NCBI GenBank assembly: GCA_963921825.1
Contig: OY997590.1
Span: 58,270,012 to 58,334,011 of the forward strand
DNA from: Erodium maritimum
Lineage: Eukaryota > Streptophyta > Magnoliopsida > Geraniales > Geraniaceae
Length of the DNA stretch: 64,000 nt
Direction: 5' to 3'
Shown here piece after piece: positions 25,049 to 64,000 of the stretch. How positions within the stretch are numbered: position 1 is the stretch's first letter; each line of letters starts with the position of its first letter. Both the position numbers and the translations under genes were made by a program. The notes beneath the pieces are model-generated. The model did not search any database. It was given only the letters and a program-made list of their open reading frames with translations, and was not told where the DNA came from.

Positions 25049-26736
25049 TGTTGGGTCTCGAGGTAGGGTTGGAGATGAACCAACTCGCAGCGGAAAATCA
25101 ATGAAAACCAAGAGACGATTAAAACCATGAAACAACTAACAAAGAATGGATTCACAAGAGAAAAATTCAGCACTAGTTCTTACCAAAACAAGAACACCGG
25201 TTAACGAATGATTGGCTTGAGTCTCCAAGACGCCTACGTATCCACATGGGAATCAAAGCCACGTAGTTCTTCTCTTTGAGGACTCAAGAACACAAAAATG
25301 GAGGAGGAAACTAGCCAAACCCGAAATGGCCATGGAAGAGGGAGAGAAAATGTGTTTCCTATTCTTGTCTTGTCTTTGTTATGTTGAAAAAAGATGACTT
25401 AAACATAACAAAACCCATACTTGTCCAACTAAAGGCATGGGACAAGTATGGTGTCAAGTAAGGTGTAAATAGGACAAAGTATGGCAAGACAAGATTGGGT
25501 TAGGTGGTGAATCACCAACACCTTAATCCTTGTCTTGCTTACTTAGTACTAATTAATCAAGACTTGATTAATTAGTTCCATGGGCCTTGGTTGCATGGGC
25601 CTTTCATGGGCCTCTTGGAACATGGCCCGTGGCCATTTCCAACGAGGTCCCGTGATTCGCTCATCGCCTCCATGCCTTCCATACCGGAAATGTCCAACAT
25701 TATCCGACGCGATCAATCCCAAGACTCCAAGCCTTGTCTCGATCCGTAAAGTCCTATTCACTTACGGGTGCATGACCCAAAACCCAGTTTTGGTCATGTC
25801 CCGAGACAACTCCCTTTTGCCCATTCTCCATAAATGTGTCAATGAGTTTCATCCTCCGGTGTGACCCTTAGGTTTATGCATGTCAATAGATCAACGTAAA
25901 ATCCCATTTTACTTGATCCTATTTAAGTGGCAACTAACGAGACTTTAGTATTGCCTGACACTACATAACGAATCGACCCTGTCGATTCTAACCTTTCCGT
26001 CGTCCCTGTCATTATCCTTTTATCTCCGATATCCTGATTGAGATAAGGCATAGAGCCGTCATCCTTATTATTCTCAATCACCGTTCCTTGATATGTGAGA
26101 TGACTGAAGATATGATACCCAGTATCATGTGCATGGCCATGCTATTCTTCCAGTCACTCTCGATCAAGCGGCCGAGAACCGATATCTTTCCCATACCTTA
26201 GTATGAGGGATAAATCCCTTAGCCGTCTTTCGTGTCACTCATGTAGCCCGTCCCCAAGCCAATCCTGGCCGTTATGGAAGCCCTGTTACGGACAACGTTA
26301 GGCTCAGGTCAAACTCAGTTGTTGACTACATAGCGATCACAAAGACTCCTTGGTCTAAGGATACATGACAAGCTACAACACTGAATGTGTTCATGACTTA
26401 ATCTATGGCACATATTCAGGGCGGGTCGTCCAATATCATGTCCCACATGATATCTATGATCAGACTCCGGAATCCCATTCCAATGACTAACAGAACGTAA
26501 GCCATAAAGAGCCATCTTTCATACTAGTCGCTTCTAGTGAAGCTTTGTTGACTAGGGACCCATCGAGTGTGATCTATCTCGATCTATGGTTCTATTCGCA
26601 TGGTGGGCATAGATCAGAGCACACATCGATATATTACTCCAACACATAAGTAATATAAAGCCGCTTTAATTTTATTGCTAACGATGATATATACATTTAG
26701 ACATTTAGGATTGAACTACGGGCACTAAGACTAACA
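25049..26736 (-). mobile_element. Solo LTR of a Ty1/copia family, TSD GCCCG
   Basis: 1688 bp. Plus-strand ends are TGTTGGGTCTCGAGG and AAGACTAACA; in the transcription sense (minus) it starts TGTTAGTC and ends CCCAACA. Perfect 5-bp TSD GCCCG at 25044-25048 and 26737-26741. The same LTR appears at 39592-41264, 44658-45931 and, reversed, at 47787-49476. No coding sequence. Its very close match to the 39592 copy suggests recent activity. Confidence 0.95.
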
Positions 26737-26912: not shown

Positions 26913-29454
26913 GAGCATATACAGTGTTGAAGTTCATATAAGTAAATCTGAGCACCATACAGAAGAACCCTTCCACAACTTGGCGTACACAATATTGATT
27001 GTATATTTAATATTGTTTTGTTGAATTCGATTGTTATTTGTTTTTTCGATTCGAAATATAAATTAATATTTTTTGTGTGATTAAAGATATTAAATAATTG
27101 TTTGAGAACAATATCACCCTAGTGACTATAACTTTTATAAATTATGAATTCGGTTTGTACAAAATTGAGTTTGATTCATTAGCAACGGAAGGTTTAAACG
27201 CGGTAAAAACGCTGCAATACAGTATTTGTATTGATTCGTGTGGTCCTCAAATAATATGGGCCGGAAGTGATGGTTAGCAATGAAGCCCGTGAGTAAAATG
27301 AGCCCGACGGCAGGCCTGGCCCGTAGTATGATAGGGTTTTAAGAGCAGGAACAACGGGTCGCGCCCGCTCCCCGCCCCGCGCGTGTCGGGAACGCAGGAC
27401 GCTGGCCGGTCCGCTGCAGACGCGATAATTCGCATTCCCGCTCCCCATTTTCGCGCTCCCGCTCCCCGATCTCCCGCTCCCGCTCCCCGATGCCTGGCCG
27501 AGCGCGCTGGACGCGCCCTCGCGCCCTGGCCTGCGCTGGTAGCGCCTGGTGGCGCCACGTGTCCCGACCGTTGGCAACGGTCACTCCAACGGCTATTTTT
27601 TTAATTCAAAAATCAGATAAAATTATCCCTATAAATACCCAACCCCATTTCTCATTTTTGACACACCATTCTCTATTTTCACTCTTTCATTCTCACTTCC
27701 TACTCGTTATTTCTGAAAATGTCCGACGACGAGGTTATGTCCGACGCTGAGTAGATAACGTACGAGGAGCTGGCTCCCCGGATGCCGACGCATGCGGAGA
27801 TGGCAGCCCAACTGCCGACATATGAGGAGATGGCAGCCCGAATGCAGCCAGCTTTGCGACGTTTCTGGCGGATGATGGAGAGGCAGATGCAGGCAGTAAT
27901 GCCAAGGGTCCAGAGGGCCATGCGTGGGGAACCAATGCGCCGAGAGATTAACAGAAATCGTGCGGAAGCCCACATCCAATTGATGGCGAACTATTTTGAC
28001 GAACAACCCCTATATGGCCCTGAAATGTTCAGGCGTCGGTTCCGTATGTGCAGACCACTTTTCCAACGGATTATGAACGCGGTGAAGGCTCAAGACCCTT
28101 ACTTCATTGGATGGAGGCCCGACGCTGCCTCACGGCTGGGCTTATCAACGGAGCAGAAGTGCACCGCCGCTATACAGATGCTTGCGTATGGGTCCTCGAC
28201 CAATTCATTGGACGAAACTCTGCGCATTGGGGTAAGCACCATACTTGAATGTTTACGTAAGTTTTGCAAGGCCGTCATTGAGGTATTCAGAGCTGAGTAT
28301 CAGCGTACACCCACACCGGCTGACATGGACCGCTTACTCCGAGAAGGGTACAACCGAGGGTTTCCCGGAATGACGGGGAGTGTTGACTGTATGCATTGGA
28401 AGTGGAAGAACTGCCCAACCGAAGAGCAGGGAGCCCATGGACGGGGAGGTCACCACGGGGAAAAGACGATTATGCTTGAAGTTGTAGCGTCCCGTGATTT
28501 ATGGATTTGGCATGCATTTTTCGGGATGGCTGGATCGAACAACGACATCAACGTCCTCAACCACATCCACTTATTCCAAGACGCTTACTACGGCCAAGAA
28601 CTTGCTGTTGAGTACTACATCAACGACCATCGATACGACCGACCTTATTACTTGGTGGACGGGATTTACCCAGCATGGGCACGGTTCGTGAAGACTATTC
28701 GGCATCCCTACGAGCTCAAAGAGAAGTTGTTTGCTAGATGCCAAGAAGGTGCTCGGAAAGATATTGAAAGGGCTTTTGGAGTACTTCAAGCAAGGTGGCA
28801 CATCATTTCCCGTCCCGCTCGTACTTGGAGCAAACACACTTTGGCTGATATCATGCACACTTGCATAATTCTACACAACATTATTGTAGAGGATGAGCGC
28901 GACCGGTACGAGTATGGGGAGGAGGAGTTGTTGTGGGCGCAACCTCTAGAAATGCCGAATTGGACACCACCGGAACGATGGCACCACAGACCAGGGCCAT
29001 TGCCATACCAGCAACGAGTGTATGCTCAACAAAGTGTCATAGATCCTGAGATCCACCATCAACTACAACAAGATCTTATGGAGCACTTATGGGATCGCTT
29101 TGGAGCTGGTTTCCATGACGACGAGTAGTCGTTTGTGCTCTTGGAGCTGGTTTGTTTTGGGTTGTATTAAAAGGGGTTGAATAAAATTAGAAGTTCATTG
29201 ATTGTCATTAATTATTGCTTTCCAAAATTGTTTAAATTATGACTAAATTAAACGGTTTCTGATAACGGATTAAATAAAACAGGAAAATATCAAATAATAA
29301 TCCAGTCAGCACTGTTCTGCACTCCCAGGACCTCAAGGTCCTTTCTGTTGCAAAACACCCACTTTTCTGCACTCCCACTCCCTGACTTTTGTCCAGTCAG
29401 CACAAGGTCTGCACTCCCACTCCTTGACCAAGGTTCTTTCTGTTGTGCATGCTC
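26913..29454 (+). mobile_element. PIF/Harbinger DNA transposon, TSD TAA
   Basis: 2542 bp from GAGCATATACAGTG (left) to an inverted GAGCATGCACAACAG (right), flanked by TAA at 26910-26912 and 29455-29457. It carries one transposase gene (27719/27782-29128). The upstream part holds a GC-rich block (27350-27560) with repeats of CGCTCCCGCTCCCCGAT, probably the promoter or leader. I saw no companion Myb-like ORF, which autonomous members usually carry. The last 130 bp repeat TGCACTCCCACTCC.TGAC and TTCTGTTG motifs. Confidence 0.8.
27782..29128 (+). CDS. PIF/Harbinger transposase (DDE nuclease), nearly intact
   Basis: 448 residues from ATG 27782. The likely original start is ATG 27719, in frame, but codon 12 is TAG at 27752-27754, so the annotated protein lacks its first 21 residues. 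N-terminal repeats of TYEE.A.RM/THAEMAAQL precede the nuclease. DDE residues are visible: Asp in GSVDCMHWKWKNCP, Asp in YYLVDGIYPAWARF, Glu in GARKDIERAFGVLQARW. The C-terminal part (LHNIIVEDERD) matches plant Harbinger nucleases, which cut TIRs with a Myb-like partner in the nucleus and target TWA sites. Everything after 27782 is open, so the protein could be produced by downstream initiation. A closely related but decayed copy lies at 22930-24790. Confidence 0.92.
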   Translation: MPTHAEMAAQLPTYEEMAARMQPALRRFWRMMERQMQAVMPRVQRAMRGEPMRREINRNRAEAHIQLMANYFDEQPLYGPEMFRRRFRMCRPLFQRIMNAVKAQDPYFIGWRPDAASRLGLSTEQKCTAAIQMLAYGSSTNSLDETLRIGVSTILECLRKFCKAVIEVFRAEYQRTPTPADMDRLLREGYNRGFPGMTGSVDCMHWKWKNCPTEEQGAHGRGGHHGEKTIMLEVVASRDLWIWHAFFGMAGSNNDINVLNHIHLFQDAYYGQELAVEYYINDHRYDRPYYLVDGIYPAWARFVKTIRHPYELKEKLFARCQEGARKDIERAFGVLQARWHIISRPARTWSKHTLADIMHTCIILHNIIVEDERDRYEYGEEELLWAQPLEMPNWTPPERWHHRPGPLPYQQRVYAQQSVIDPEIHHQLQQDLMEHLWDRFGAGFHDDE

Positions 29455-31176: not shown

Positions 31177-31185
31177 TATTATTAA

Positions 31186-32730
31186 GGGTAAACTTCATCC
31201 CACTACCTTAAAAAAACTTAAATTCCAACCCACTACCCTAACGAAACTTAGTTGCACCTCACTACCCTAACGAAACTTTTAGTTGCACTTTCATACCCGC
31301 CGTTAACTTGACATCCATTTTTGGATGGAAAATTGTAAAAAGTCCAAAATACCCCTCACTAACAACACTCAAATTTTCAACAACATGCCATTGGTTTTCA
31401 AAAATTCTTTTTATTTATTTATTTTATATAAATCAGTTTTTTTATTTTTAAAAATCAGTTTATTATTTTACAAAAATTAGATTTTATTTAAAAAAATAAA
31501 TCTTTTATTTAAAAAACAGATTTTATTTTAAAAAATCAATTTTTAATTCGATTTAATTTTCAAAAAAATCATTTTTTATGTTAAAAAATCATTTTTGTTT
31601 TATAAAATCATTTTTTTAATATCAATTTTTTTAAAAAATATATCAAATTTTATTTTAAAAAATATATCATAATTTAATTTGAAAATTCAGTTTATTACTT
31701 GTTAATCTTTATTTTTATAAAATTACAGAAAAAAATCACTTAAATAACGAATTTCCATTTTTTTATTTTACTTTTATTCAGTTACTTTATTTCTAATTTG
31801 ATTTTAGTTTATTTCTAATTTGTTCAACAGGTTTCATCCGGGTTTTGTTCAAAAACATTCAACAATCAATTCCAGAAACAACTTTGATTCAACAGTTCCA
31901 AATATAATCCAAACATCAATTTTTTTCCAAACCAAAACTTTGTTCCAAATCCAACCCATATACATTTCTGAAATCAAAATCAAACCAAAAACATTGAAGA
32001 ACATCCTATCTTGAATTTGCTGCAATTTGCTCCAACATTGAAGAACAAAATTTCAACTAAATCTAACCTAGAAACTACAAATCGAACTCGAATAATAGAA
32101 TCTCATTGAATAATAACCAGATCTGAAAATCGAAATAGAAGAAGAAGTCTGAAAATATGAAAATCGAAATCTGAAAATCGCAACCGCTATCGGAGCTCAC
32201 GAGCTCGAGCTCCATGCCCCTGTACCCGACGAAGACGCCCCAAATACTCACCCTCTCCAAGCAGAGGACCCAACTCGACCCCCTCTCCTATCGTAGATCT
32301 GAACGCAAACGTGAGATTTGTAGAGCTCGACGGCGCCACCAGCAAGAAGAACCTAAGTATGGAGGCTGCGTGGCTTCACCTGTGAGTTGTGACCTTTATG
32401 GAGCTCGCCGGATCCGGTGTGGCTTCACTTGTAAGTTGTGAGTTGTTGGAGATGAAGAAGAAAATGGAGGCTGCGTGGAAATTAAAACATAAAGGATTAG
32501 GGTTTGGGGTATCAAAGGTAATTTTAGTAGGGGTAGTGTTGACATTTAAAAAAAAATTGGGGTCATGTGCTAGGCACATGACCATTTTCCATCCAAAATG
32601 GATGGAAAGTTAACGGTAGGTACTAAACTGACACTAAAAGTTTCGTTAGGGTAGTGAGGTGCAACAAAGTTTCGTTAGGGTAGTGGGTTGGAATTTAAGT
32701 TTTTTTAGGGTAGTGGGATGAAGTTTACCC
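31186..32730. mobile_element. Non-autonomous MULE, TSD TATTATTAA
   Basis: 1545 bp with long TIRs starting GGGTAAACTTCATCCCACTACC at both ends; internally the TIRs contain repeats of CACTACCCTAACGAAACTT. Perfect 9-bp TSD TATTATTAA at 31177-31185 and 32731-32739. No transposase. The middle (about 31990-32500) is richer in GC than the AT-rich arms, contains a duplicated segment around GGAGGCTGCGTGG, and may be captured gene sequence (Pack-MULE-like). It is related to the element at 52265. Confidence 0.93.
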
Positions 32731-32740
32731 TATTATTAAA

Positions 32741-33272
32741 GAAGATGACTAAAACACAAGTTTTGGGTATGTTTTTGCAATTATTAACCAATATGACTAA
32801 AACACAAGTTTAGGGTATGTTTTTGCAATTACCATAAAGAACACTAAAAGACAAGTTTGGGTATATTTTTGCAATTATCAAACAAGATGATTAAAAGATA
32901 AGTTAAGGGTATGTATTTGCAATTATCAAAGAAGAACACTAAAAGACAAGTTTAGGGTATGTTTTTGCAATTATCAAAGAAGATGACTAAAACACAAGTT
33001 TAAGGTATATTTTTGCAATTATCAAACAAGATGACTAAAACATAAGTGTAGGGTATGTTTTTGCAATTATCAAACAAGATGACACAAGATGACTAAAACA
33101 CAAGTTTAGGGTATGTTTTTGTAATTATCAAGCAAGATGGCTTAAAGATAACTTTAGGGTATGTTTTTGCAATTATCAAACAAGATGACTAAAATATAGG
33201 TTTGGGGTATGTTTTTGAAATTATCAAAGATGAATATTAAAAGATAAGTTTAGGGTGTGATTTTTGTAAGTT
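32741..33272. repeat. 48-bp minisatellite, about 11 copies
   Basis: Consensus core GATGACTAAAACACAAGTTT then AGGGTATGTTTTTGCAATTA and TCAAACAA. Units differ by substitutions and one has an internal duplication of ATGACACAAG. The array starts immediately after the right TSD of the MULE. Non-coding. Confidence 0.92.
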
Positions 33273-33460
33273 ATGTATTAATATGGGCGAAATGGGTATT
33301 CGTGGGTACCCAAATGGGTATTGGGTAGAAATGGGTAAGGCTAAGATGGTTAAATAATGGGTATTAGGCGGATATGGGGATTTAGCAATGACAAATGGGT
33401 AGAAATGGGTATTATGATATTCGCCCATACCCGCCCATATCCGCCCATTTTCCATCTCTA
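33273..33460. repeat. GGGTAT-rich inverted repeat, possible hAT-type MITE
   Basis: Left part ATATGGGCGAAATGGGTATT and right part GCCCATATCCGCCCATTTTC are imperfect inverted repeats, and the interior repeats AATGGGTA. This resembles small hAT-type elements built from TGGG.ATA motifs. No clear TSD was found, so the borders are approximate. Confidence 0.4.
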
Positions 33461-39591: not shown

Positions 39592-41264
39592 TTGGGTCTC
39601 GAGGTAGGGTTGGAGATGAACCAACTCGCAGCGGAAAATCAATGAAAACCAAGAGACGATTAAAACCATGAAACAACTAACAAAGAATGGATTCACAAGA
39701 GAAAAATTCAGCACTATCTCTTACCAAAACAAGAACACCGGTTAACGAATGATTGGCTTGAGTCTCCAAGACGCCTACGTATCCACATGGGAATCAAAGC
39801 CACATAGTTCTTCTCTTTGAGGACTCAAGAACACAAAAATGGAGGTGGAAACTAGCCAAACCCGAAATGGCCATGGAAGAGGGAGAGAAAATGATTTTCC
39901 TATTCTTGTCTTGTGTTTGTTATGTTGAAAAAAGATGACTTAAACATAACAAAACCCATACTTGTCCAACTAAAGGCATGGGACAAGTATGGTGTCAAGT
40001 AAGGTGTAAATAGGACAAAGTATGGCAAGACAAGATTGAATTAGGTGGTGAATCACCAACACCTTAATCCTTGTCTTTCTTACTTAGTACTAATTAATCA
40101 AGACTTGATTAATTAGTTCCATGGGCCTTGGTTGCATGGGCCTTTCATGGGCCTCTTGGAACATGGCCCGTGGCCATTTCCAACGAGGTCCCGTGATTCG
40201 CTCATCGCCTCCAAGCCTTCCATACCGGAAATGTCCAACATTATCCGACGCGATCAATCCCAAGACTCCAAGCCTTGTCTCGATCCGTAAAGTCCTATTC
40301 ACTTACGGGCACATGACCCAAAACCCAGTTTTGGTCATGTCCCGAGACAACTCCCTTTTGGTCATTCTCCATAAATGTGTCAATGAGTTTCATCCTCCGG
40401 TGTGACCCTTAGGTTTATGCATGTCAATAGATCAACGTAAAATCCCATTTTACTTGATCCTATTTAAGTGGCAACTAACGAGACTTTAGTATTGCCTGAC
40501 ACTGCATAGCGAATCGACCCTGTCGATTCTAACCTTTCCGTCGTCCCTGTCATTATCCTTTTATCTCCGATATCCTGATTGAGATAAGGCATAGAGTCGT
40601 CATCCTTATTATTCTCAATCACCGTTCCTTGATATGTGAGATGACTGAAGATATGATACCCAGTATCATGTGCATGGCCATGCTATTCTTTCAGTCACTC
40701 TCGATCAAGCGGCCGAGAACCGATATCTTTCCCATACCTCAGTATGAGGGATAAATCCCTTAGCCGCCTTTCGTGTCACTCATGTAGCCCGTCCCCAAGC
40801 CAATCCTGGCCGTTATGGAAGCCCTGTTACGGACAACGTTAGGCTCAGGTCAAACTCAGTTGTTGACTACATAGCGATCACAAAGACTCCTTGGTCTAAG
40901 GATACATGACAAGCTACAACACTGAATGTGTTCATGACTTAATCTATGGCACATATTCAGGGCGGGTCATCCAATATCATGTCCCACATGATATCTATGA
41001 TCAGACTCCGGAATCCCATTCCAATGACTAACAGAACGTAAGCCATAAAGAGCCATCTTTCATACTAGTCGCTTCTAGTGAAGCTTTGTTGACTAGGGAC
41101 CCATCGAGTGTGATCTATCTCGATCGCATGGTGGTCATAGATCAGAGCACACATCGATATATTACTCCAACACATAAGTAATATAAAGCCACTTTAATTT
41201 TATTGCTAACGATGATATATACATTTGGACATTTAGGATTGAACTACGGGCACTAAGACTAACA
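39592..41264 (-). mobile_element. Solo copia LTR inside copia integrase, TSD CTTA(G)
   Basis: 1673 bp, nearly identical to 25049-26736. The right TSD CTTAG is at 41265-41269. At the left, CTTA (39588-39591) runs straight into TTGGG, so the last TSD base and the first two LTR bases (G and TG) are missing: a 3-bp deletion at the junction. In minus sense it starts TGTTAGTC. No coding sequence. Confidence 0.9.
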
Positions 41265-44657: not shown

Positions 44658-45931
44658 TGTTGGGTCTCTTGGTAGGGTTGGAGAGTTATCAACTCGCAGC
44701 GGAATAATCAAAACAAAATCAAAAGACCATGTCTTAGAAATACTACCAAAGAATGAAAATTACAAGAGAAATTTGAGCTCAAGGTTTCCTTATCAGTTTG
44801 TTCAAGAACACAATGTAGAGACGAAGAACACTAAGGAAGATCAATGGCTCGAGTCTATAAGACACTTATGTATCCTCCAAGTAATCAAAGCCACGTAGTT
44901 CTTGGTTGAGAACTCAAGAACACAGCCACAATTGGAGCGCTAGGGGGTTTCAGCCAAGAGGAAGAAGAAGAGAAGAGTTTTGGTCATGTCCCGTGTTAAC
45001 TTCCCGTTTGGCCCTTGCTCCATTGGTGTGTAAATGATTTTCATCTTCCGGTATTGACCCTTAGGTTTATGTATGTCGATAGATCAATGTAAATTCCCAA
45101 ATTACTTGATCCTACCCTAGTGGCAGCTAACGAGACTTAACATAGCCTAACACTACAAATCGAATAGACCCTATGTCGATTCTAACCTTTTCGTCGTCCC
45201 TGTCATTATCCTTTTATCTCCGATATCCTGATTGAGATAAGGCATAGAGCCGTCATTCTTATTATTCTCAACCACTTTTCCTTGATATGTGAGATGACTG
45301 AATATATGATACCCCGTATCATGTGCATGACCATGCTTTTTCCTTCAGTCACTCTCGATCAAGCGGCCGAGAACCGATATTTTTCCCATACCATAGTATG
45401 AGTGATAAAGCTCCTAGCCGTCTCTCGTGTCACTTATGTAGTCATTTCCCAAGCCAATCCTGGCCGTTATGGAAGCCAGTCACAGTGAAATGTTAGGCTC
45501 ATGTCAAACTAAGTTGTTTACTGCATAGTAAACACAGAGACTCCTCGGTCTAAGGATACATGACAAGGTACGACTTTGAACATGCTCATGACTTAATCTA
45601 TGGAACATATATAGGTCGGGTCGTATAATATCATGTCCCACATGATATCTATGATCAGACTCTAGAACCCTTTCCAATGGCCAATAGAACGTAAGCCATC
45701 AAGAGTCATCTTTCATACTAGTCGCTTCTAGTGAAGACCGTTGACTAGAGACCCCATCGAGTGCGATCCATCTCGATCTATGGCTCTAATTGCCTAGTGG
45801 GTGTAGATCGAAAACACAAACGATATATTACTCCAACACTTCAGTAATATGAAAGCCGCTTTATTATACTCCTAACAGTGATATTTATATTTGGACATTT
45901 TACGATTGGACTATGGGCATTAAGACTAACA
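44658..45931 (-). repeat. 3' LTR of the second copia element, internally deleted
   Basis: 1274 bp compared with about 1.69 kb for full copies. A block of about 430 bp, corresponding to 39890-40325, is missing near 44975. Sequence identity to the solo copies is clearly lower than that between 25049 and 39592, so this copy is older. Confidence 0.88.
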
Positions 45932-45977: not shown

Positions 45978-47781
45978 TTACCTTACAAACCTTTCGTGTT
46001 TAGGCAACGAACGCGCCTTGGTCAAAGGGTCGGCTATGTTATCATCTGTCGCAATATATGTGATCTTAACATCATCTCGGTTTAGTATTTCTCTTATGAG
46101 GTGATATCTCCATAGTACATGTTTGGATTTGTTATGTGATCTGGGCTTTTTATCTTGTGCAGTGGCCTTAGTGTTGTCGCAAAATAGGTTCACCTGATTG
46201 GAGGGGTTTTTAATTACGCCCAACCCTGCCGTGAACTTCTTAATCCACACAGCCTCCTTGGCCGCCTACGCAGCCGTTATGTACTCGGCCTCTGTCATAG
46301 AATCAACGACGATATCTTGCTTCACGTTCTTCCAGCTGAAAGCTCTACCGTTCAATGTGAACACAAATCCCGACTGACTCCTAAAGTCATCTGGATTTGT
46401 CTGAAAACTAGCATCAACATACCCATTGACTGTTAGCTCAGCACATCCTTCCCACCATACACCAGGAAAGTGTCTTTATTTCTTCTCAAATACTTGAGAA
46501 TCGCTTTGACCACAATCCAGTGTTCCACATCGGGGTTACAAGTTAAGGCATACAAGACATCCATTCTCGTACATATCATGGTGTAGATGATCGATCCTAT
46601 CTTCGAGGCGTACGGAATTCGCATAATCCTTTTCAGCTCATTAGGTGTATTAAGGCACCGAGTCTTATTGAGATGAACGCCATGATGAGCGGGAAAGAGT
46701 CCTTTCTTTGAATTGAGCAATGAGAACTTACTCAATACCTTGTTGACATAGGTGCTCTGACTTAATCCCAAGACCCTCTAGATGCGATCTCTATATATCT
46801 AAATCCCTAAGATATAAGCAGCATCGCCTAAGTCCTTCACCGCGAAACACTTTCCTAACCAAGCCTTGGTCTCATGCAAGGTTGGGGTGTCACTTCCGAT
46901 GAGTAGTATGTCATCGACATACAACACCAGAAAGGTAATCTTACTTCCACTGACCTTCTTGTAAATGCAAGGCTCATCTTTTTTCTTGACAAAGCCAAAT
47001 CCAATTATAGCTTCATCAAAACGAAGCTTCCAACTCTGAAAAGCCTGTTTCAATCCATAAATGGATTTCAACATCTTGCATATCTTTCCCCTATTCTTCG
47101 AATCGACAAACCCTCTGGCTTATGCATGTAAACATTCTCAGTCAGGCTTTCATCCAAGAAAGCGGTCTTGACATCCATTTTCCATATCTGGTAATCATAG
47201 TGCACACCTACGGAAAGAAGAATTCGGATCGATTTGACCATAGCCACTAGTGAGAAGGTTTCCTCATAGTCAATCCCTTGGATCTGCCTATAACCTTTCC
47301 CAATCATTCGGGCTTTGAAGGCCTGAGGGTTGCTGTTCATGTCCATCTTCACCTTGAAGATCCATTTGCATCCGATGGTCCTCACACCATCGATGGGATC
47401 AACTAGTTCCCAGACTTGGTTGTCCGGCATGTACTGCATTTCCTCCCTCATGGCTCCCAGCCATAACTCGGAGTCGGGCCCATCCACGACTTCATGAAAG
47501 GTGACTGGATCCTCGTGATCCACCCTTAGCTCACCATCACCTCAAGACACAAAGTAACCATATCTCGGAGGTGGACGAATGATCTTTCCAGCTCGCCTTG
47601 GACATTTAGGAATTGCTATAGGAACTAGTTCATACTCTACGACAACTTCAGCCTCCTCTAATGGGTTTTCAAGTGGTTCACATGGATCTATACCATCTTG
47701 AACTTCTTCTATATGTAAAGTCCTCCCATTGACGTCTTTGGAAACAAATTCATTTTCTATGAAGACCCCACCTTCAGAGAC
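45978..47781 (-). pseudogene. Copia reverse transcriptase and RNase H remnant
   Basis: Ordered minus frames: pre-RT linker (47542-47781: GGVFIENEFVSKDVNGRTLH, IEEVQD); RT fingers and palm (47068-47523: GCKWIFKVKMDMNSNPQAFK, WKMDVKTAFLDES); RT palm (46799-47074: KSIYGLKQAFQSW and catalytic VLYVDDILLIG); connection and RNase H (46433-46771, 45978-46250: VNLFCDNTKATAQ, SKHVLWRYHLIREIL, NIADPLTKA). They are separated by stops or frameshifts. The start ATG at 47787 in the open frame overlaps the inserted LTR and is not genuine. Confidence 0.88.
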
Positions 47782-47786
47782 GAACA

Positions 47787-49476
47787 TGTTAGTCTTAGTG
47801 CCCGTAGTTCAATCATAAATGTCCAAATATATATATATCATCATTAGCAATAAAATTAAAGCGGCTTTATATTACTTATGTGTTGGAGTAATATATCGAT
47901 GTGTGTTCTGATCTATGCCCACCATGCGAATAGAACCATAGATCGAGATAGATCGCACTCGATGTGTCCCTAGTTAACAAAGCTTCACTAAAAGCGACTA
48001 GTATGAAAGATGGCTCTTTATGGCTTACGTTTTGTTAGTCATTGGAATGGGATTCCGGAGTCTGATCATAGATATCATGTGGAACATGATATAGGACGAC
48101 CCGACATGAATATGTGCCATATATCAAGTCATGAACATATTCATTGTCGTAGCTTGTCATGTATCCTTAGACCAAGGAGTCTTTGTGATCGCTATGCAGT
48201 AAACAACTAAGTTTGACCTGAGCCTAACGTTGTCCGTAACAGGGCTTCCATAATGGTACGGATTGGCTTGGGGACGGACTACATGAGTGACACGAAAGAC
48301 GGCTAAGGGATTTATCCCTCATACTACGGTATGAGAAAGATATCGGTTCTTGGCCGTTTGATCGAGAGTGACTGAAAGAATAGCATGGCCATGCACATGA
48401 TATTGAGTATCATATATTCAGTCATCTCACATATCAAGGAACAGTGATTGATAATAATAAGGATGACGACTCTATGCCTTATCTCAATCAGGATATCGGA
48501 GATAAAAGGATAATGACACGGAGGACGGAAAGGTTAGAATCGACATGGTCGAATTATTATGCAGTGTCAGACAATACTAAAGTCTCGTTAGTTGTCACTG
48601 AAATAAGATCAAGTAAAATGGGATTTTACGTTGATCTATTGACATGCATAAACCTAAGGGTCACACCAGAGGGTGAAACTCATTGACACATTTATGGAGA
48701 ATGGGCAAAACGGAGTTGTCTCGGGACATGACCAAAATTGGGTTTTGGGTCATGTGCCTGTAAGTGAATAGGACTTTACGGATCGAGACAAGGTTTGGAC
48801 TCTTGGGATTGATCGCGTTTTATAATGTTTGACATTTTCGGTATGGAAGGCTTGGAGGCGATGAGTGAATCACGGGACCTCGTTGGAAATGGCCACGGGC
48901 CATGTTCCAAGAGGCCCATGAAAGGCCCATGCAACCAAGGCCCATGGAACTAATTAATCAAGGCTTGATTAATTAGTACTAAGTAAGCATGACAAGGATT
49001 AATGTGTTGGTGATTCACCACCTAACCTCATCTTATCTAGCCATACTTTGTCCTATTTACACCTTCTTTGTCACCATGCTTGTCTCATGCCTTTAGTTGG
49101 ACAAGTATGGGGCTTGTTATGTTTAAGTTATCTTTTTTCAACATAACAAAGACAAGACAAGAATAGGAAAAACAACTTCTCTCCCTCTCTCCTTACAATT
49201 TCGGGTTTGGCAAGCTCCCACCTCCATTTTTGTGTTCTTGAGTCCTCAAAGAAAAGAACTACGTGGCTTTGATTCCAATGTGGATACGTAGGCGTCTTGG
49301 AGACTCAAGCCAATCATTCGTTAACCGGTGTTCTTGTTTTGGTAAGAAATAATGCTGAATTTTTCTCTTGTGAATCCATTCTTTGTTAGTCGTTTCATGG
49401 TTTTAATCGTCTCTTGGTTTTCATTGATTTTTCGCTGCTAGTTGGTTCATATCCAACCCTACCTCGAGACCCAACA
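47787..49476 (+). mobile_element. Solo copia LTR in reverse orientation, TSD GAACA
   Basis: 1690 bp. It reads TGTTAGTCTTAG to GAGACCCAACA on the plus strand. Perfect TSD GAACA at 47782-47786 and 49477-49481. It interrupts the pol of a related copia element between KLNENTVF and VSEGGVF. No coding sequence. Confidence 0.95.
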
Positions 49477-49481
49477 GAACA

Positions 49482-50710
49482 CCGTGTTCTCATTGAGTTT
49501 GTAGAAGTAGTATCCCCTTATTTCCTTGGGATTTACCGCGAAGGTGCATTTCTTAGATCTTTGTTCGAGCTTAGTCGAAACCAAACGTTTCACATAAGCC
49601 TCGCAACCCAAGACCCTCAGGAAGGACAAAACGGGCTTCTTCCCGTGCCATTTCTCAAATGGTGTCCCTTCCACAGCCTTCGTAGGAGCCCGATTCAAAA
49701 TGAATGCGGCCGTCTCTAGAGCATAACCCCAAAAAGAGATAGGGAGATCAGTCCGACTGATCATGGATTAGACCATATCCAATAAGGTCCAATTCCTCCG
49801 TTCGGACACACCGTTCAACTGTGGTGTTCTAGGAGGAGTCAATTATGAAAGGATCTCATTCTCTATTAGATGATCTAAGAACTTTGTTGTTAAGTATTCT
49901 CCACATCGACCCGATCGAAGTGCCTTAATACTCTTTCCGATATGGTTTTTTACTTTAGTCCTGAACTCCTTGAATTTATCAAAGGCTTCAGACTTATGTC
50001 TCATCAATTAGACATAACCAAATCTACTGTAATCGCCAGTAAAAGTGATGAAGTAGCTAAAACCCCTCCTGGAAAGTGCACTCATTGGTCCACACACATC
50101 CGAGTGTATCAGCCCCAATAAGTCACCCAACCTTTCACTGTGACCGATGAAGGGCGCTCTAGTCATTTTACCCATCAAACAAGATTCACATCTATCAATC
50201 GAATGAAATTCGAATTGAATTAGAAGTCCGCACTTGTGAAGTGCTGATACGCGTTTCTCGTTTATGTGGCCTAAACGACAGTGCCATAATAGAGTCTGGT
50301 CTAAATCATCAGATTTAGACCTTTTGGTATTTATATTATATATAGAGCTTGAGGCGTTGTCATCCATATCTAATAGATACAACCCTCCGACCATCTTAGC
50401 ACTAGCATAAAATATATCACTGCATAAAATGTTGAAAATCTCATTCCCAACATCAAAATTGTGTCATTCCTTGTCCAACACAGAAGTAGATACAATATTC
50501 CTACTAAAAGTAGGTATGCAATATACATTGTTTAATACAAGTACCAGGCCACTAGGTAAAGAGAAACTAATGGATCCTACAACAGTCGCTACAACCCTGA
50601 TGTTGTTGCCCACTTTGAGGTTCACTTCATCCTCTCTTAAGCGTCTCCTACTATCCATCCACTGCACATTAGTACATATGTGTGATTCAACACCGGTATA
50701 AAATACCCAT
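49482..50710 (-). pseudogene. Copia protease and integrase remnant
   Basis: Protease region: the minus frame near 50700 reads SWVFYTGVESHIC, so the catalytic Asp is Tyr (codon at 50698-50700); SLPSGLVLVLNNVYCIPTFS follows at 50464-50667. Integrase zinc-binding and core (50008-50394): LLWHCRLGHINEKR, CESCLMGKMTRAPF, Asp in LIHSDVCGPM, TFTGDYSRFGYV. C-terminal part (49482-49764): PISFWGYALETAAFILNRAP and LRVLGCEAYVKR. Between 49765 and 50007 the frame is broken by stops. Non-functional. Confidence 0.85.
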
Positions 50711-50817
50711 GAATCTTTGGAAATAGCGAGATGCAGCTCTATAAAATAAATACCTATCGAAGGTGCGGTCCCATCGCCCTTCTTCAGATCATCTTGGAAC
50801 TTCCTACAATTCTTCTT

Positions 50818-51637
50818 CTAGTGACCAGACTGTTGACAGTAGTAGTAGACCATCTCAGTCTCCTTATCCCTCCTAGAGGACTCCTCGGTCTTAGGAGGGT
50901 TATGACCCTTTGAAAGTTTGAACTTTCCTGCTAGGTGCGTAAGGGCCTTTCCTTTGCCACCTCTAGTTCCCTTCTTCATACTGGTTTCCCTTTTGACCAT
51001 CAGAACTTCCTTGTATCCTTGATCCCTGATGTTCTTCTCAATAGTTACCAGCATGTCGTGTAACTCTGAGATGGTCTTGTCCATGTCGTGCATGTGGTAG
51101 TTCATCACGAACCTATCATATGCACAAGGAAGGGAACGTAGAACCACGTATGTTGCCATCTCCTTTTCAATTTTAAGACCCAATCGATTAAGATGTTCGA
51201 GATGTCCCTTCATCCTTAGGACATGAGGACCCACAGAGCTCCCTATTGACATTTTGCAAGAGAGAAGTTCATTGAAGACATTGTACCTTACGATATGTGC
51301 CCTCTCCTTGAACTTACCCTTTATGCCCCCTATCATTTCGTATGGGTCCTCAGAGTACTCCATGAACAGCTCTTGGAGATTCGACTTCATGTAGCCCATT
51401 ATAATACACACCACATCAATGACGTAGCTAAGGTGCTTTAGGTATGCATTCTTAACATCCCTAGCGGCGTTATTAGCTAGCTCGTCAAAGAAAGCCTGGT
51501 CTAGGACATATTCCTTGCGTTCATACTTGAGAACGATTCTCAAGTTTCTGTCCTAGTCCAGGTAATGTCCTATTCAACTTAACCTTGTCAAGCATGGTTT
51601 TGAGTGACAAACTATTGTTCGCTGAAGAACTTGCCAT
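50818..51637 (-). pseudogene. Copia gag remnant
   Basis: ATG at 51637 (MASSSANNSLSLKTML) starts gag. A frameshift or stop near 51555 separates it from a 241-codon open frame (51543-50818) with the UBN2-type gag core: LRIVLKYERKEYVLDQ, FNELLSCKMSIGSSVGPHVL and HLEHLNRLGLKIE. The zinc knuckle at the end reads YYYCQQSGH, with the first Cys replaced by Tyr. Confidence 0.85.
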
Positions 51638-52264
51638 TCTGATCTATACGACAAAATAATTTTTATCAGTAAACTGAATAAATTAATTTGAAGATCCGAG
51701 GTCGAACACCAACCATTTGATTCAAAATCAAAGAACCAAGAACCTTGATTCACTCGACTGAGCTGAATGAAGGCTCACCACTCAATCGAGCTGTGTAGGT
51801 CGGACCACGTCTGATCACATCCCATGTGACTCTTGGGTAGGGTATGTACACGGATTACCCTATCTGATACCCTAGCTCAACCCTGACTGAGAATCGTATC
51901 CGAGTCCACAATTTCTCGACTATGACCCGACACTATACAAGTGCTCTGTTAAGGCGCACGACACCCACATATGTTGTCCAAACTTATAACCCCGCCTTCC
52001 CATGGATGATCCATGAAGGCGCATGACACCCATAGGACGAGGAGGTATTAAGTTTCCGAATCAAATGATAAGGTTAATTACTTTGATAAAGTATTAAGTT
52101 CAAATTATGCAAGCATTAACTGAACAACAAATTGCATATAGTAAAAACATAACCCATTGGATTAATTTCTCATATTGCTTTCCCTAGCCCTAGATCAATG
52201 GAAATTTAGTTCATAAAGATGGTGGAAGAACACAAAGAGCAAAAAGAACAAGAGATAAAAATTA

Positions 52265-53911
52265 GGGAAAATTTCATTTTACCACCCTGGCAAACATTTA
52301 ATTTCAGTTTGATACCCTGGCATAAATTTTTATCAGTTTCATACCCAAACCAAACTTTTAATTTCACTTTCATACCCAGCCGGGTAAAATGTCCAAAATA
52401 CCCCTAACTATTACTCAAATTTTCATCTCAAGCCATTGACTCAGAATTTGAAAAGAAGTGAAATGACAATAATACCCTTCATTGTTTAGGTTGTTAAAAT
52501 GAAAATTTCTTTCAAAATTTTTAAATTTTACAAAATAACTTTTTATTTTTATTAATTCAGTTTTTGTTTATGAAAAATATTTTTTCTTTTTAAAAATTCA
52601 GTTTTTATCTAAAAATTCATATAAAAATCAATTTTTAAAAAATATACTTATAAATCATATTTTTTTATATATACTTTTTTTATTTTCTATTTTTATATAT
52701 ATATTTTTTTTACTTTTTTCTGTTTAATTCATACTTTATTTTTTTTCTTCAATCTTCAACCTTTTTTTTCTGTGTTCTTTCTCCTCCCAAACTTTTTTTT
52801 CAAAACCACACGTCTAAACCAAACCTTTTCACTTTCCCCTTTCTATCAGCCTTCGTGTTCTTCATCTCTGCATCTCCTATATTTTCCAAGCTCCATCTCT
52901 ATCCATACCCACACATCTATCCATATCCACACATCAGAATCAAACAATAGTAAAGGTAGCATCAAAAGTCTGATTTTAGATCTGTAAAAATTGTTGTTCA
53001 AATTGTTCATAGCATTCAAATTCAGAGTTGAGAAGATACATTTCAGATCTGTAAAACAAAAAAACCTAAATCCCCAGTCGACGGCCAATGACGAAACTCT
53101 GCTGTACAACAGCGATTTTCAATCGACGGCGCCGATGTAAACCTCGGGAAGCTGTAGAGCCTTCTGGAGAGGAACGAGAAGAACACGAAGGACTCCGAGA
53201 ATGGTACTCCGGGAAGGACTCGCGGCTGAAGATCCTCCTAGAGATGCTCTCACCGCCGCTGTCCAAGACTCGTGCCATGACCCTGTGTGTTCTCCTGCGA
53301 GAACGGGTGGCTCTGACATGGGCGAAGGCGGCGCCGTGAAGATGGTCCGGTTGAGGCGGCGCTGGGAAAGAAGAAAGTGATGAAGATGAGAGTATATTGC
53401 AGATGAACGAGAGAGAGAGGATATGGTTTTATTCTATTAGGTTTTATGTTTTAGTTTTTAACTTTAATATAATTTTTAATTTGTTAATTGTTTTATTTTG
53501 TTATACTTAATTATTGTTTAATAATAATTATATATTTTATTTATTTTCTTAAATTATTTATTTTTATATTAATTTTTAAATAAAAGCTGAATTTAAAAAA
53601 AATCATAAATAAAAACTGAATTAATAAAAATAAAAATTTATTTTGTAAAATTTAAAATTTTTGAAAGAAATTTTCATTTTAACACCCTAACAATGAAGGG
53701 TATTATTGTCATTTCACTTATTTTCAAATTCTGAACCAATGGCATGAGTTTGAAAATTTGAGTAATAGTTAGGGGTATTATGGACATTTTACCCGGCTGG
53801 GTATGAAAGTGAAATTAAAAGTTTGGTTAGGGTATGAAAATGATAAAAATTTATGTCAGGGTATTAAAGTGAAATTAAATGTTTGACAGGGTGTTAAAAT
53901 GAAATTTTCCC
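52265..53911. mobile_element. Non-autonomous MULE with possible captured gene, TSD TAAAAATTA
   Basis: 1647 bp with TIRs of over 300 bp starting GGGAAAATTTCATTTTA. Perfect 9-bp TSD TAAAAATTA at 52256-52264 and 53912-53920. TIRs contain repeated GGGTA(T)...AAATTAAA.GTTTG motifs. The centre (53080-53400) is GC-rich and open in several frames (RRRRCKPREAVEPSGEEREE on plus), unlike the AT-rich arms, which suggests captured host coding sequence (Pack-MULE). I do not recognise the source. Related to the element at 31186 (shared AAAATACCCCT.ACTA..ACTCAAATTTTCA). Confidence 0.93.
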
Positions 53912-53920
53912 TAAAAATTA

Positions 53921-58826: not shown

Positions 58827-61689
58827 TACCGATCTGTACCTCGAGACATGGTACCAATGGACGGACTTGAGGACGGGGATGACCATGGGACCTATGAAGG
58901 AGGCCCTAGGAATTAGGTTCTTGGTGGGTGGAACGACTACACTCGGTGATAAGGGGAATAACGACCACCCATTCCTTCTCACGTGATCCTTGTATCAAGA
59001 CCCTGGATCATAAACGGAACCCTTATTGATGGTGGGATTATACACGGTCCGGGCCATACCATATAATGAGGGGCGTATAACGAGGCGTACAGCAGAGACC
59101 CCCACATGAAGACCCGGGGACTAGTTGTCCCGAAGCAGGAACAAGTGAGGTTTGCGGTGCAACCTCGTCAAGGGAAATGAGTGGCCCTCTGTGCAATAAA
59201 GTGTGTGGGGGGGCGCACACTCCACCCTGCTATGTCCGGTGCGAGCACGACACTCTGATATACTCCCTCCCATTTTTTGGTGTTCTCCTTAACTACCTGT
59301 GCACTCCATAGATTCCCCTAATCTATCTCCACGAGTGTCAGGTCGAGTCAGAAAATGTGTTGAAGTCTCTCAGTATCGCCCCAACAATAAGAGCAACTAT
59401 GTTGTGGAGTTGAGCATTCCACGTCTAAGGGTTAGAACATAGTCTTACCCATTTGATTTTATATCTTTTGTCTTGCTTTTCTTTACTTTTAATAGTGCTT
59501 ATCTATTTGTAGCTTGAATTTCGTATCAATAAAAGATTTTACCATATACTAAAAAATACATTTCAGTTCACAAAATAAGTTAGTTTGAAATAAATAATGT
59601 TAAATCAATTATATTACATTATTATATTAGTCTTTTAACTCTAAATCGAAAAAAGTTCATGAATCAAACCAAAAGATATTAAATTGATTATTTTTAAACA
59701 TGTAGAACCTTAAACTTTCAGACTAAAAGATACCAAATAAGTCTGGGAATTTGGTGATATGAGCTCTGCTAAGGTTTCAGAACCTCAAACCCAGGCGGCG
59801 GCTTTCCTTTAGGGCCGCCGTCGTTTCTCCCGACCTCAATCCGTTACTGTTGTTCCGTCGATATGGCGTCCATCCTCTTCACATTCTCCTGCTCGTCCAC
59901 TGCCCACGAGGGTCATCACTATCCAATTCTCATCTTCCCTGATTTTCCCCAACTCCCATCAACACGATCACATCGTCGTCGCCATCGCCTATCCCTTTCC
60001 CAATTGTTTTTTTTGGTGGGGGGTGGGGGGGGGGGGGGGGGGGGGTGGGGGGGGGGGGTGGGGGTCTCGTCTGCTACTGCCATTCCCCCCATTGATCTCG
60101 GCGGCAATTGTCTGAAGCCTCTACCACCGTCTCTAAAGTTGCATCAGTCGCCGCCGCTGGCACGTCCTTCTCCCTGACTTCCACCACCGCTCCCTCCTCG
60201 ATCCCTCTCTCGATTCTGGATCTGGCTAATGAGTGGGTCTTTTTTATTTTATTTGATTTCGTTTTTGCAGGGTCAAAATCTAATACGCAGAGATTCAGAG
60301 ACTTATGCTCTAGGGGATGGCTCTAGGAGGGGCAGGTTCAATCGTACTCTACTGTGCATGCAACGTTTAGGCAAGACCTCGAATATCTGTAGTCAACTTC
60401 TTCTAGTTTTAGTGTGTCGCCTTTATAGCATCTCATTCAATACTGTTAGGGACGGTTATTGTATCTTTCGTCTGTTCTTCATGGTTAGAGATTTATTCAT
60501 GATGCAATTAAATGTATTTGAATTTAAATGAATGGATTACATTTTCCCTCGAAAAGAATATATACCAAATGCTATTAATGCTAAATTTTGAGTTTTCGGA
60601 TTGAATTATTTTAGAGGACAAAAATAAAAGGTTTTGCAGATAATGATCAAGTGCGGACATGGCAGACAACGCACTCCATCGACGGCACATCACATCTCAG
60701 CTGAGAAGATGTGGGCTCCACAGAAACAGCCTGGCCCCACCAGTAGTAGCTCCTCCTGAGATGTTTCTGCCTGCTGTCCCACCGGGTCCCTGCTACGCCT
60801 ACTTGCACCATAACAATTTGGATCCCATCCCAGCCATCAAACTGTCTTTTATCGTGTTCCCGCATATGGATATTTATTGTTTTTATTTTGAACTTTTGTG
60901 TATCACGAGCCGTATATTGTAAAGATCGGAGTATATGAATGGAAATATTTAATTTGAGTTTGGTTTACTAAATGTGTAATATGAATTTAAAATGTTTGTA
61001 AATCGGTTCATCTTCTTCAGAATAGGAAGTAGATTTCTTTAAATAGAAAATAAAGTTTTTATAATGGCCGTTATCCTAGAAGGAATAGTGATCAATAACT
61101 TTCAATAACAAACGATCTAATAATAAGCGGTTATAGCAAGCATAACTAAGACAAGAAATATAATTAAAATAGAAATTGAAATCAAAGCTAGAACAGAAAG
61201 TAAAACCAAAGGTGACAATTGTCAAGAACCGTTCAAAGTAGGGCCTAAACGATGCTTGGTCCTTGTTTTCCAAGTACTCGTTTTGTCAAATGAACTATCG
61301 AACTTGAACCTAGTAGTGTGGCTGAGAGGACCGACTCGTCTTAGGGACTCCTCCCGGAGTAAGTCCCTAAAGCTTAGGTTGTATAACATCTCTCGTGGTG
61401 GGGTGCTTCCCCGCCCTCGCTTGGTCTTCCCGCGGCTCCCCGTTTTTTTTTCAGCAAATTTTTATAGACCTTACCTTCGTAATCGAAGACAAGGCCTAGG
61501 GAAACCCTTAAGAACAGTTACTTACAAAATGAGGCATCCCAAAACGAGATCCCTAGGTTAAATTAAAGTAAGTAACAAGAATCAATGACAACACAGTCTC
61601 AGAACTATCCCAACAAGGGGAAATAAACCAACACGATTTAGAAATCAGATAAAACCGTAATTAAGCACACGAAGCCAATAAGGGCTAAA
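58827..61689. other. Unassigned region with a G-tract and possible decayed gene pieces
   Basis: 58827-59420 continues the sequence interrupted at 56822 and is probably an old element or pseudogene; no domain is recognisable. 59776-60330 looks like the start of a transcribed unit (pyrimidine-rich, ATG 59863) but is open only through a Gly-coding G tract. 60600-61690 holds nothing I can name. Confidence 0.4.
60015..60064 (+). repeat. 50-bp interrupted poly-G tract
   Basis: G runs of 7, 21, 12 and 4, or similar, separated by single T. This is the longest G-rich run in the window and strongly prone to form quadruplexes. Exact run lengths may be unreliable in any assembly. Confidence 0.88.
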
Positions 61690-62262
61690 TCAAAACAAAC
61701 AGGAAACAGTCAACATAACAAAACCACCTAGAAACACCACCGAACAGCAGAGGAAAGAGAGAAAAAAAAACCTCCAAAGCCTTACACCAGACATCCCAAA
61801 TGGGACAGACCCGGGGGGATATCTCTTAACACCTAGGGGGCTTATCTTTAAAGTCTGGCAAAAACCTCGAGGGTAAGGCGCCACCCCGAAACGACCTTGA
61901 TACTTGAGAAACGGGTTAGGTACCGTGTCCAGGGTCACAAGAAGATCCTTTTCTCGAGATGTCCCAACCTTAGGTAGCGTGTTCGAGATCAATGGTGCAA
62001 ATCCAAACGGTGGAAGTGCTTCTCTTACCCAATCTGTGGCGTATCGTCTGTCCACCTTGACAGTCTTTAATTCCAGGATCGATTCGTCAAAGTGGGGCAC
62101 CCCTGACACCTCCCAATCATAGTCTCGGACCATGTGATCGATCATTTCGCAATGAAAACAAAAAACAAGTAATTGTTCATATGTCAGACTAACCCTTACC
62201 AGGTCCGAGTATTCCCAGAAGCGCATGATCATGGTATACCGCATGATTCGGTGAATGTCCAT
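61690..62262 (-). pseudogene. Zinc-knuckle retroelement ORF remnant (LINE ORF1-like)
   Basis: A 190-codon minus frame contains VRVSLTYEQLLVFCFHCEMI then DHMVRDYDWE, matching the zinc-knuckle region that follows DUF4283 in plant LINE-type proteins. The knuckle pattern C-x2-C-x4-H-x4-C has Tyr in place of the last Cys. No DUF4283 is visible upstream, and no endonuclease or reverse transcriptase follows within the region. Probably a 5'-truncated or captured remnant; alternatively a fragment of a host zinc-knuckle protein. Confidence 0.5.
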
Positions 62263-62577
62263 CTAGAACCGGACTTTCACCGTCCCACCCCAATAGAGGC
62301 CTAATTGATCACATGGGTTTTCACGTGCTCGCCTAGTGTAGCACCTATAATCTCCCCGGTTGACGTCCTAACAAGGGGTGGAGACCTATCGGTGGCTGAG
62401 GGCGGCGAAACAGAAGACGAGGGCGACAGCGCAATCATGACAGAAGGCTAGGTTGATAATAGGGCAGCGGCACAAGTTCTGAGAGAGACAGAATGTATTT
62501 CTCAAAACTTTATCGACATGTTTATCTAATCGGTTCATTAAATAAATGATAAGAAATGAATGTTAAATTTTGTATTA

Positions 62578-63195
62578 CAACAGCAACAACAACAACAACG
62601 ACGACTACTACTACTACTACTACTACTGCTACTACTACTGCTGCTACTACTGCTACTGCTGCTACTGCTGCTACTGCTGCTGCTGCTGCTCCTACTGCTG
62701 CTGCTGCTCCTGCTGCTGCTACTCCTCCTACTACTACTGCTGCTCCTGCTCCTCCTCCTGCTCCTGCTCCTGCTCTTGCTCCTGCTCCTGCTCCTGCTCC
62801 TACTCCTACTCCTACTCCTACTTCTACTACTGCTACTACTACTACTGCTACTCCTATTACTGCTACTACTACTACTGCTGCTACTCCTGCTACTACTACT
62901 GCTGCTACTCCTCCTACTCCTGCTACTACTCCTGCTCCTGCTCCTGCTCCCCCTCCTCCTCCTGCTCCTGCTCCTCCTCCTCCTACTGCTGCTGCTACTA
63001 CTGCTGCTCCTACTACTACTACTACTACTGCTACTACTGCTACTACTACTGCTACTACTACTGCTACTACTACTGCTACTACTACTGCTACTACTACTGC
63101 TACTACTACTGCTACTACTACTGCTACTACTACTGCTGCTACTACTACTGCTCCTACTACTACTGCTCCTACTACTACTACTACTACTACTGCTC

Positions 63196-63242
<47 letters not shown>

Positions 63243-63261
63243 GCTCCTACTACTACTACTC

Positions 63262-63315
<54 letters not shown>

Positions 63316-63567
63316 CTACTCCTACTACTGCTACTGCTACTACTGCTCCTACTCCTACTGCTCCTACTACTGCTCCTACTACTGCTCCTGCTCCTACTGC
63401 TCCTACTGCTCCTACTGCTCCTCCTACTCCTACTCCTACTCCTCCTCCTACTCCTACTCCTACTCCTACTCCTACTCCTACTCCTACTCCTACTCCTACT
63501 CCTACTCCTACTCCTACTCCTACTCCTACTCCTACTCCTACTCCTACTCCTACTCCTACTCCTACTC

Positions 63568-63624
<57 letters not shown>

Positions 63625-63699
63625 CCACCACTACTACCACCACTACTACCACCACTACTACCACCACTACTACCACCACTACTACTACTACTACTACTA
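62578..63699. repeat. 1.1-kb imperfect CTN triplet array
   Basis: About 370 triplets. After a short CAA/CGA start, nearly every triplet is CTA, CTG or CTC (rarely CTT). Sub-blocks have higher-order periods: CTACTACTACTG (12 bp, about 63040-63140), CTCCTA (6 bp, about 63425-63570), pure CTA runs, and CCACCACTACTA (12 bp, 63624-63680). One frame is therefore almost pure leucine codons, and the opposite strand Ser/Arg or Val/Gly. The several very long open frames here are by-products of the period, not genes. Confidence 0.95.
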
Positions 63700-64000
63700 A
63701 GCTCGAACCAAGATCTGAGATATGCACCTTCGTGTGGTATCCCAAAACAACAAGGGGATACTATTTCTACAATCCCAGTAAGAACATGGTGTTCGTCGCT
63801 TGGGGTGGGGTCTTTATGGAAAAGAAGTTTTGTTTCCAAAGACGTCATTGGGAGGATTGTGCATCTTGAAGAAATTCAGGATGGTACAGATCTGTCTAAA
63901 CCAATTGACAACCCAGTAGAAAGGAGCCAGAGATTGTCGTAGAGTAAGAACCAAATCCTGTTACAATTCCGGAAGGTCCAAGGAGATTTGAAAGGGTCAA
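63700..64000 (+). pseudogene. Start of a plus-strand copia pol fragment, cut by the window edge
   Basis: Right after the triplet array the sequence reads KLEPRSEICTFVWYPKTTRG and YYFYNPSKNMVFVA, the integrase/RT junction of copia. In a second frame (frameshift near 63800) it continues with FVSKDVIGRIVHLEEIQDGT. A stop (TAG near 63940) and a further frame shift then follow. It matches the second copia element (47542-49764) segment for segment. The upstream part of the element is absent. Confidence 0.88.

Follow-up and report, generated by a model that had tools for sequence, protein, structure and literature searches.

A long compound CTA/TAG-type trinucleotide microsatellite beside a copia fragment in a transposon-rich stretch of the Erodium maritimum genome

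A 64,000-nucleotide stretch of one Erodium maritimum assembly (called the window below, and meaning the whole of the DNA that was analysed) contains, near its right end, a 1.1-kb array made up almost entirely of CTA, CTC and CTG triplets. The array is real and long, and it is a mixed triplet microsatellite of an already known, ordinary kind. Our main reading, which we hold with a probability of roughly 80%, is of a long compound trinucleotide microsatellite, CTA/TAG in type, that arose when a small mixed seed expanded block by block within a transposon-rich stretch, as represented in this one assembly.

Extent, units and internal blocks of the array

Positions 62578-63699 comprised 374 triplets, which by triplet count were all in a single register with zero frame shifts. 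There were 11 unit types, and three of them, CTA (199 copies), CTC (79) and CTG (73), accounted for 351 of the 374 triplets. The others were CCA (10), CAA (6) and CGA (2), together with one copy each of CAG, TTG, CTT, TTA and CCC. From 62605 on, 352 of the 365 units were CTN, namely all of the CTA, CTC and CTG units and the one CTT; CTG and CTC made up 152 of these 352 (43%), and with CTT seen once the third base of the array is effectively A, C or G. The 13 units of this part that were not CTN were TTG at 62776, TTA at 62857, CCC at 62950, and the ten CCA units within 63625-63678.

The first-pass annotation had described the region as about 1120 bp in which nearly every triplet is CTN and only the third base varies. 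The coordinates were confirmed by the 374 in-register triplets, but the first nine triplets are of the form CNA and the 13 exceptions among the 365 units remain. Variation confined to the third base holds as a statement about frequency and fails when taken strictly, as CCA, CAA and CGA vary in the second base, TTG and TTA in the first, and CCC in the second.

The longest uninterrupted CTN run was 224 triplets. Elsewhere in the window (outside 62501-63760), runs of triplets with a fixed leading dinucleotide reached a maximum of 11, so the array is far beyond what would be expected by chance. Tandem Repeats Finder called the array at 62604-63699, and its head-to-tail 3-bp units with few variant motifs are those of a compound trinucleotide microsatellite. 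For comparison, a search of viral and prokaryote contigs for exact runs of 30 CT-anchored triplets yielded 66 stretches in the former and at least 118 in the latter, the longest run among the 184 matches listed being 87 triplets. Coming from other organisms, these runs show no more than that CTN runs in themselves are not unique.

The array can be divided into the following blocks:

62578..62604, + strand: left edge, CAA CAG (CAA)5 (CGA)2, with mostly second-base variation (unit reading)
62605..63009, + strand: irregular mosaic of CTA, CTG and CTC that contains the single-copy units TTG, TTA, CCC and CTT (unit reading)
63010..63126, + strand: CTA-rich block, mainly (CTA CTA CTG CTA)x8 at 63031-63126, with a 12-bp period (block analysis)
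63127..63444, + strand: runs of CTA, up to 17 units, interspersed with CTG and CTC units (block analysis)
63445..63570, + strand: (CTC CTA)x21, with a 6-bp period (block analysis)
63571..63621, + strand: (CTA)17, with a 3-bp period (block analysis)
63625..63684, + strand: (CCA CCA CTA CTA)x5, a variant in the second base that was amplified in the form of a 12-mer (block analysis)

A run of (CTA)17, with the 3-bp period, was also found at 63262-63312. The higher-order periods of 3, 6 and 12 bp that had been noted at first reading were thus recovered as (CTA)17, (CTC CTA)x21, (CTA CTA CTG CTA)x8 and (CCA CCA CTA CTA)x5. The LZ complexity of the unit string was 50, compared with a mean of 70 (minimum 64) in 500 shuffles and a mean of 67 (minimum 58) in 500 first-order Markov strings. 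Because the observed value was below that of every shuffle and every Markov string, unit blocks must have been copied repeatedly. Copying of whole units and blocks is accordingly what the zero frame shifts, the blocks of 3, 6 and 12 bp, and the LZ complexity all display. The LZ and per-position statistics were calculated from the 364 units beginning at 62608; the CTA at 62605 makes 365.

The third base and the growth of the array

Across these 364 units, the base differed from the commonest one in 155 units at position 3 (0.426), in 2 units at position 1 (0.005), and in 11 units at position 2 (0.030). Among the amplified unit variants, CTG and CTC differ at position 3, but CCA, and with it the left-edge units CAA and CGA, differs at position 2. 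The types present as a single copy in the CTN part, TTG, TTA, CCC and CTT, differ at positions 1, 1, 2 and 3, respectively. The left-edge unit CAG differs from CAA in its third base; if it is counted in, two of the five single-copy types differ at position 3. Single-copy types are the best witnesses of recent mutation, and their distribution, in four or five observations, is as undirected mutation would give. In other words, the third base is special by frequency and hardly so by the number of distinct changes, and the array gives the impression that a few founders, namely CTA, CTG and CTC units, were copied and shuffled, with no rule protecting CT.

The keeping of phase had earlier been taken to mean growth in triplet steps and an array that is young or actively homogenised. 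Growth in triplet steps and youth are the preferred reading here as well. Special homogenisation would not be required by the keeping of phase, with just four types in the CTN part that are not shared. Most mutations in plants are of kinds other than indels, and among so few changes their absence would need no special cause.

The growth of arrays to 364 units was simulated with block duplication, deletion and point mutation. When the seed was eight pure CTA units and mutation was uniform, 6 of 1465 high-variation runs placed at least 92% of the variation in one position (high-variation runs being those with a total variation of at least 0.30, 1465 out of 3600 pure-seed runs). When the seed was 6-20 units with 2-8 prior changes, the same concentration was reached in 15-78% of such high-variation runs at mutation settings of 2e-5 and 1e-4, and in 0.4-16% at 3e-4. 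The models were also compared under broad priors, a run being accepted if it fell within windows set about the observed values: uniform mutation from a mixed seed (5-20 units) was accepted in 649 of 33,520 runs, steady uniform mutation from a pure seed in 50 of 33,520, and a pure seed with a third position mutating 20 times faster in 423 of 33,520, the last being not far below the mixed seed; acceptance rates were low throughout and depend on the chosen priors and windows. Steady uniform mutation with block copying from a pure seed was contradicted by the simulation, and the mixed-seed model was substituted for it. Within the model, a small mixed seed with fast expansion is favoured over steady uniform mutation, and a mixed seed would be sufficient; the acceptance of the model with a faster third position leaves the seed story itself unproved.

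According to the mixed-seed reading, the starting point would have been a small seed that already contained CTA, CTG and CTC units. This seed would have grown fast by the copying of blocks of one to several units, whether by slippage, by break repair on misaligned repeats or by unequal exchange, and its expansion would have outpaced the accrual of point mutations.

An alternative is that the third base of the unit truly mutates or is converted more often than the others, either because the A in CTA mutates with a bias set by strand or context, or because repair is mismatch-tolerant at that base. The large difference in variation between position 3 and the other two positions and the 423 accepted runs of the corresponding simulated model are what such a bias would predict. 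We nevertheless regard it as unlikely, as one of the four single-copy types of the CTN part (two of five with CAG) falls at position 3, the amplified CCA, CAA and CGA units all differ at position 2, and CTT, the remaining third-base variant, accounts for 1 of 365 triplets.

Selection on an encoded amino acid is a second way in which the pattern might be explained, whether leucine in one + strand frame, threonine, alanine and proline in another, or serine and arginine on the - strand. Five of the six frames are open across the array, and the stop-to-stop frames, one of which has an ATG (62560), are 377-460 amino acids long. The Thr/Ala/Pro frame, of 438 amino acids, continues in frame into the KLEPRSE of the adjoining copia sequence. 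However, a CTN repeat can have a stop in only one of its six frames (TAG, on the - strand), so long open frames through the array follow from the repeat itself, and the in-frame continuation into copia is a one-in-three event, or automatic if the array grew from copia's ACT codon. In the leucine frame most of the variation is synonymous (CTA, CTG and CTC), yet selection for leucine would also permit CTT, TTA and TTG, each of which was found in one of 365 units. In the other open frames, changes at the variable base mostly alter the amino acid; in the Thr/Ala/Pro frame the amino acid varied freely, with T at the synonymous base of 353 of 364 units. Judged from the sequence, there is no good sign of coding; coding in any frame appears unlikely, and selection on the amino acid highly improbable.

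A search of the whole window against Rfam at gathering thresholds gave no match. Folding was compared with shuffles for three 150-base blocks of the array on both strands. On the + strand, the fold of the CTG-rich left block was better than that of shuffles (z -2.6), and on the - strand it was so to a lesser degree (z -1.7). The 12-bp block folded no better than shuffles (z 2.0 and 0.5 on the two strands), and for the CTC/CTA block a fold was absent from the + strand and nearly absent from the - strand (-0.5 kcal/mol, z -2.05). Because folding was so uneven among the three blocks, with only the CTG-rich left block folding better than shuffles on the + strand, hairpins were rejected as a general explanation of the array. 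Otherwise the array looks like ordinary non-coding repeat DNA.

Flanks of the array and its junction with copia

Three features bear on the position of the array:

61693..62262, - strand: left neighbour of the array, an open frame that weakly matched a zinc knuckle (zf-CCHC_4, E 0.0022, 18 bits against a Pfam cut-off of 27)
63696..64000, + strand: copia pol fragment, its 5' side cut off by the array, with an SH3_retrovirus domain and a reading frame that changes further on (Pfam, alignment)
46900..51552, - strand: sibling copia copy without the array, homologous site at 49575-49477, split by a 1.65-kb repeat at 47829-49476 (46900 being the end of the stretch read, not the end of the element)

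The array was said to abut copia pol exactly at a KLEPRSE motif, and both Pfam and the sibling copy bear this out. The KLEPRSE frame matched the SH3_retrovirus domain (profile positions 28-71 of 73, E 3.1e-10), and the alignment to the sibling starts at 63696, one codon before the K. Of two more peptides from the copia side that were compared with Pfam, the one from part of the same stretch did not reach the cut-off (E 0.00017), and the one from further on gave no match. Positions 63696-63794 aligned to 49575-49477 over 99 bases with 82% identity, starting ACTAAG, and a second alignment with 78% identity covered 63790-63999, beyond the repeat inserted in the sibling. The sibling, which is located about 14 kb away, has ordinary pol sequence upstream of the homologous junction and no array.

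As one sibling lacks the array at the same site, the array is probably a local neighbour of copia and not part of the element. In the Lepidoptera RTE retrotransposons described in PMC2887409, a simple sequence repeat forms the element's short 3' UTR and recurs with the element, and the Erodium array resembles these families in that a microsatellite lies directly beside retrotransposon sequence. It differs from them in that the one sibling copia is without the array, so recurrence at the same site in other copies, as for a microsatellite carried by a retrotransposon, was not found in the single copy compared. It is therefore very unlikely that the array belongs as a constant component to this copia lineage, or to a repeat-carrying mobile element like the Lepidoptera RTEs: the direct adjacency to copia pol and the existence of elements that end in such repeats (PMC2887409) are in its favour, but the sole relative at hand has copia sequence and no array at the site, and the junction is inside pol and not at an element end.

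The right edge of the array falls on the ACTA(AG) of copia. The array may have nucleated there, or it may have become attached to copia by way of this short identity as the element lost its 5' part; the data are compatible with growth from the copia ACTA and with a seam joined at that identity, the role of the junction being read from 4 bp and one sibling.

To the left of the array is the open frame at 61693..62262, which may resemble a LINE ORF1. The left flank (62301-62606) had no similarity to the sibling copia upstream of the junction, with local scores of 18 on the same strand and 20 reversed, against a mean of 20 and a maximum of 30 in 200 shuffles. A comparison of 61000-62560 with plasmids in distant mode gave no match. 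From its flanking sequences, the array appears to be positioned between two unrelated broken sequences.

Such a position at a seam might raise the suspicion of an assembly or consensus artefact, produced by the collapse or mis-joining of an array that was in truth longer or purer. Raw long-read errors are expected to leave indels, and the array is without them, being irregular in its inner order yet in register throughout, which makes an artefact unlikely. It may be kept in mind on the other side that long TAG arrays were five of the last six gaps in maize, according to the account in PMC10335936.

The window as a whole is transposon-rich and plant-like: besides copia domains it carries a Plant_tran transposase, and one open frame is of the RCC1-FYVE kind. 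Several copies of a repeat some 1.65 kb long, perhaps an LTR, are located at 25049-26696, 39592-41264, 45055-45930 and 47829-49476. The matched pieces of the copies at 25049-26696 and 39592-41264 are 98-100% alike, and the copy at 47829-49476 is inverted and interrupts the sibling copia within pol. An uninterrupted frame of 457 amino acids at 27755-29125 matched the Plant_tran transposase (PF04827, E 2.8e-90). Two stretches framed by inverted repeats, 31185-32731 (92% over 137 nt) and 52262-53914 (95% over 164 nt), are in A+T-rich parts of the window and resemble non-autonomous DNA transposons. The first of these is directly adjoined by a tandem array with a 48-bp unit (32732-33274, about 11 copies, also read as a 202-bp period). 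There is also a minisatellite cluster with periods of 38 to 115 bp at 13074-13868, and a G-rich run of 47 bases at 60018-60064 with 86% matches to poly-G.

Relation to known arrays and significance

A mixed CTA/CTG/CTC array of this length was not found in a literature search, which is no proof of its absence in print. CTA and CTG units also occur within one tract in human SCA8, a likeness that implies no common descent, SCA8 being a human gene.

The closest known system is the TAG super-arrays of maize, TAG being the other strand of CTA; these too are long arrays in a plant, with transposons present (PMC10335936, reached through a 2025 review, PMC12177298). In the T2T assembly of maize Mo17, consecutive TAG arrays are up to 235 kb in length, with few point mutations where they are described, and four of the five gap arrays described contain transposons, mainly Gypsy (PMC10335936). 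In contrast, the Erodium array is 1.1 kb in length, CTG and CTC are 43% of its CTN units, and copia pol adjoins it on the right. Nearly pure TAG extending over up to 235 kb, as in the maize type, is not what was found here, where CTA accounts for 199 of 374 triplets; the array is alike in unit to the maize super-arrays and is not classed as one.

The GAA/TTC expansion at IIL1 in Arabidopsis is likewise a plant triplet tract, with more than 200 units in the expanded accessions described in PMC5006647. Unlike the IIL1 tract, which is intronic, has another motif and is associated with a phenotype (PMC5006647), the Erodium array adjoins broken transposons, and no gene has been shown there.

There is a slim chance, which we rate slightly below that of a biased third base in general, that the array may record a process that keeps the C and T of the unit and renews its third base, for example by biased mutation of the A of CTA during repeated break repair. 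If this were true, the course of expansion in a maize-TAG-type plant repeat could be read off from the order of its units. More generally, pure triplet arrays conceal their history, whereas a mixed array reveals which blocks were copied, and this array could mark how CTA/TAG repeats, which in maize extend over hundreds of kilobases, begin and grow beside transposons.
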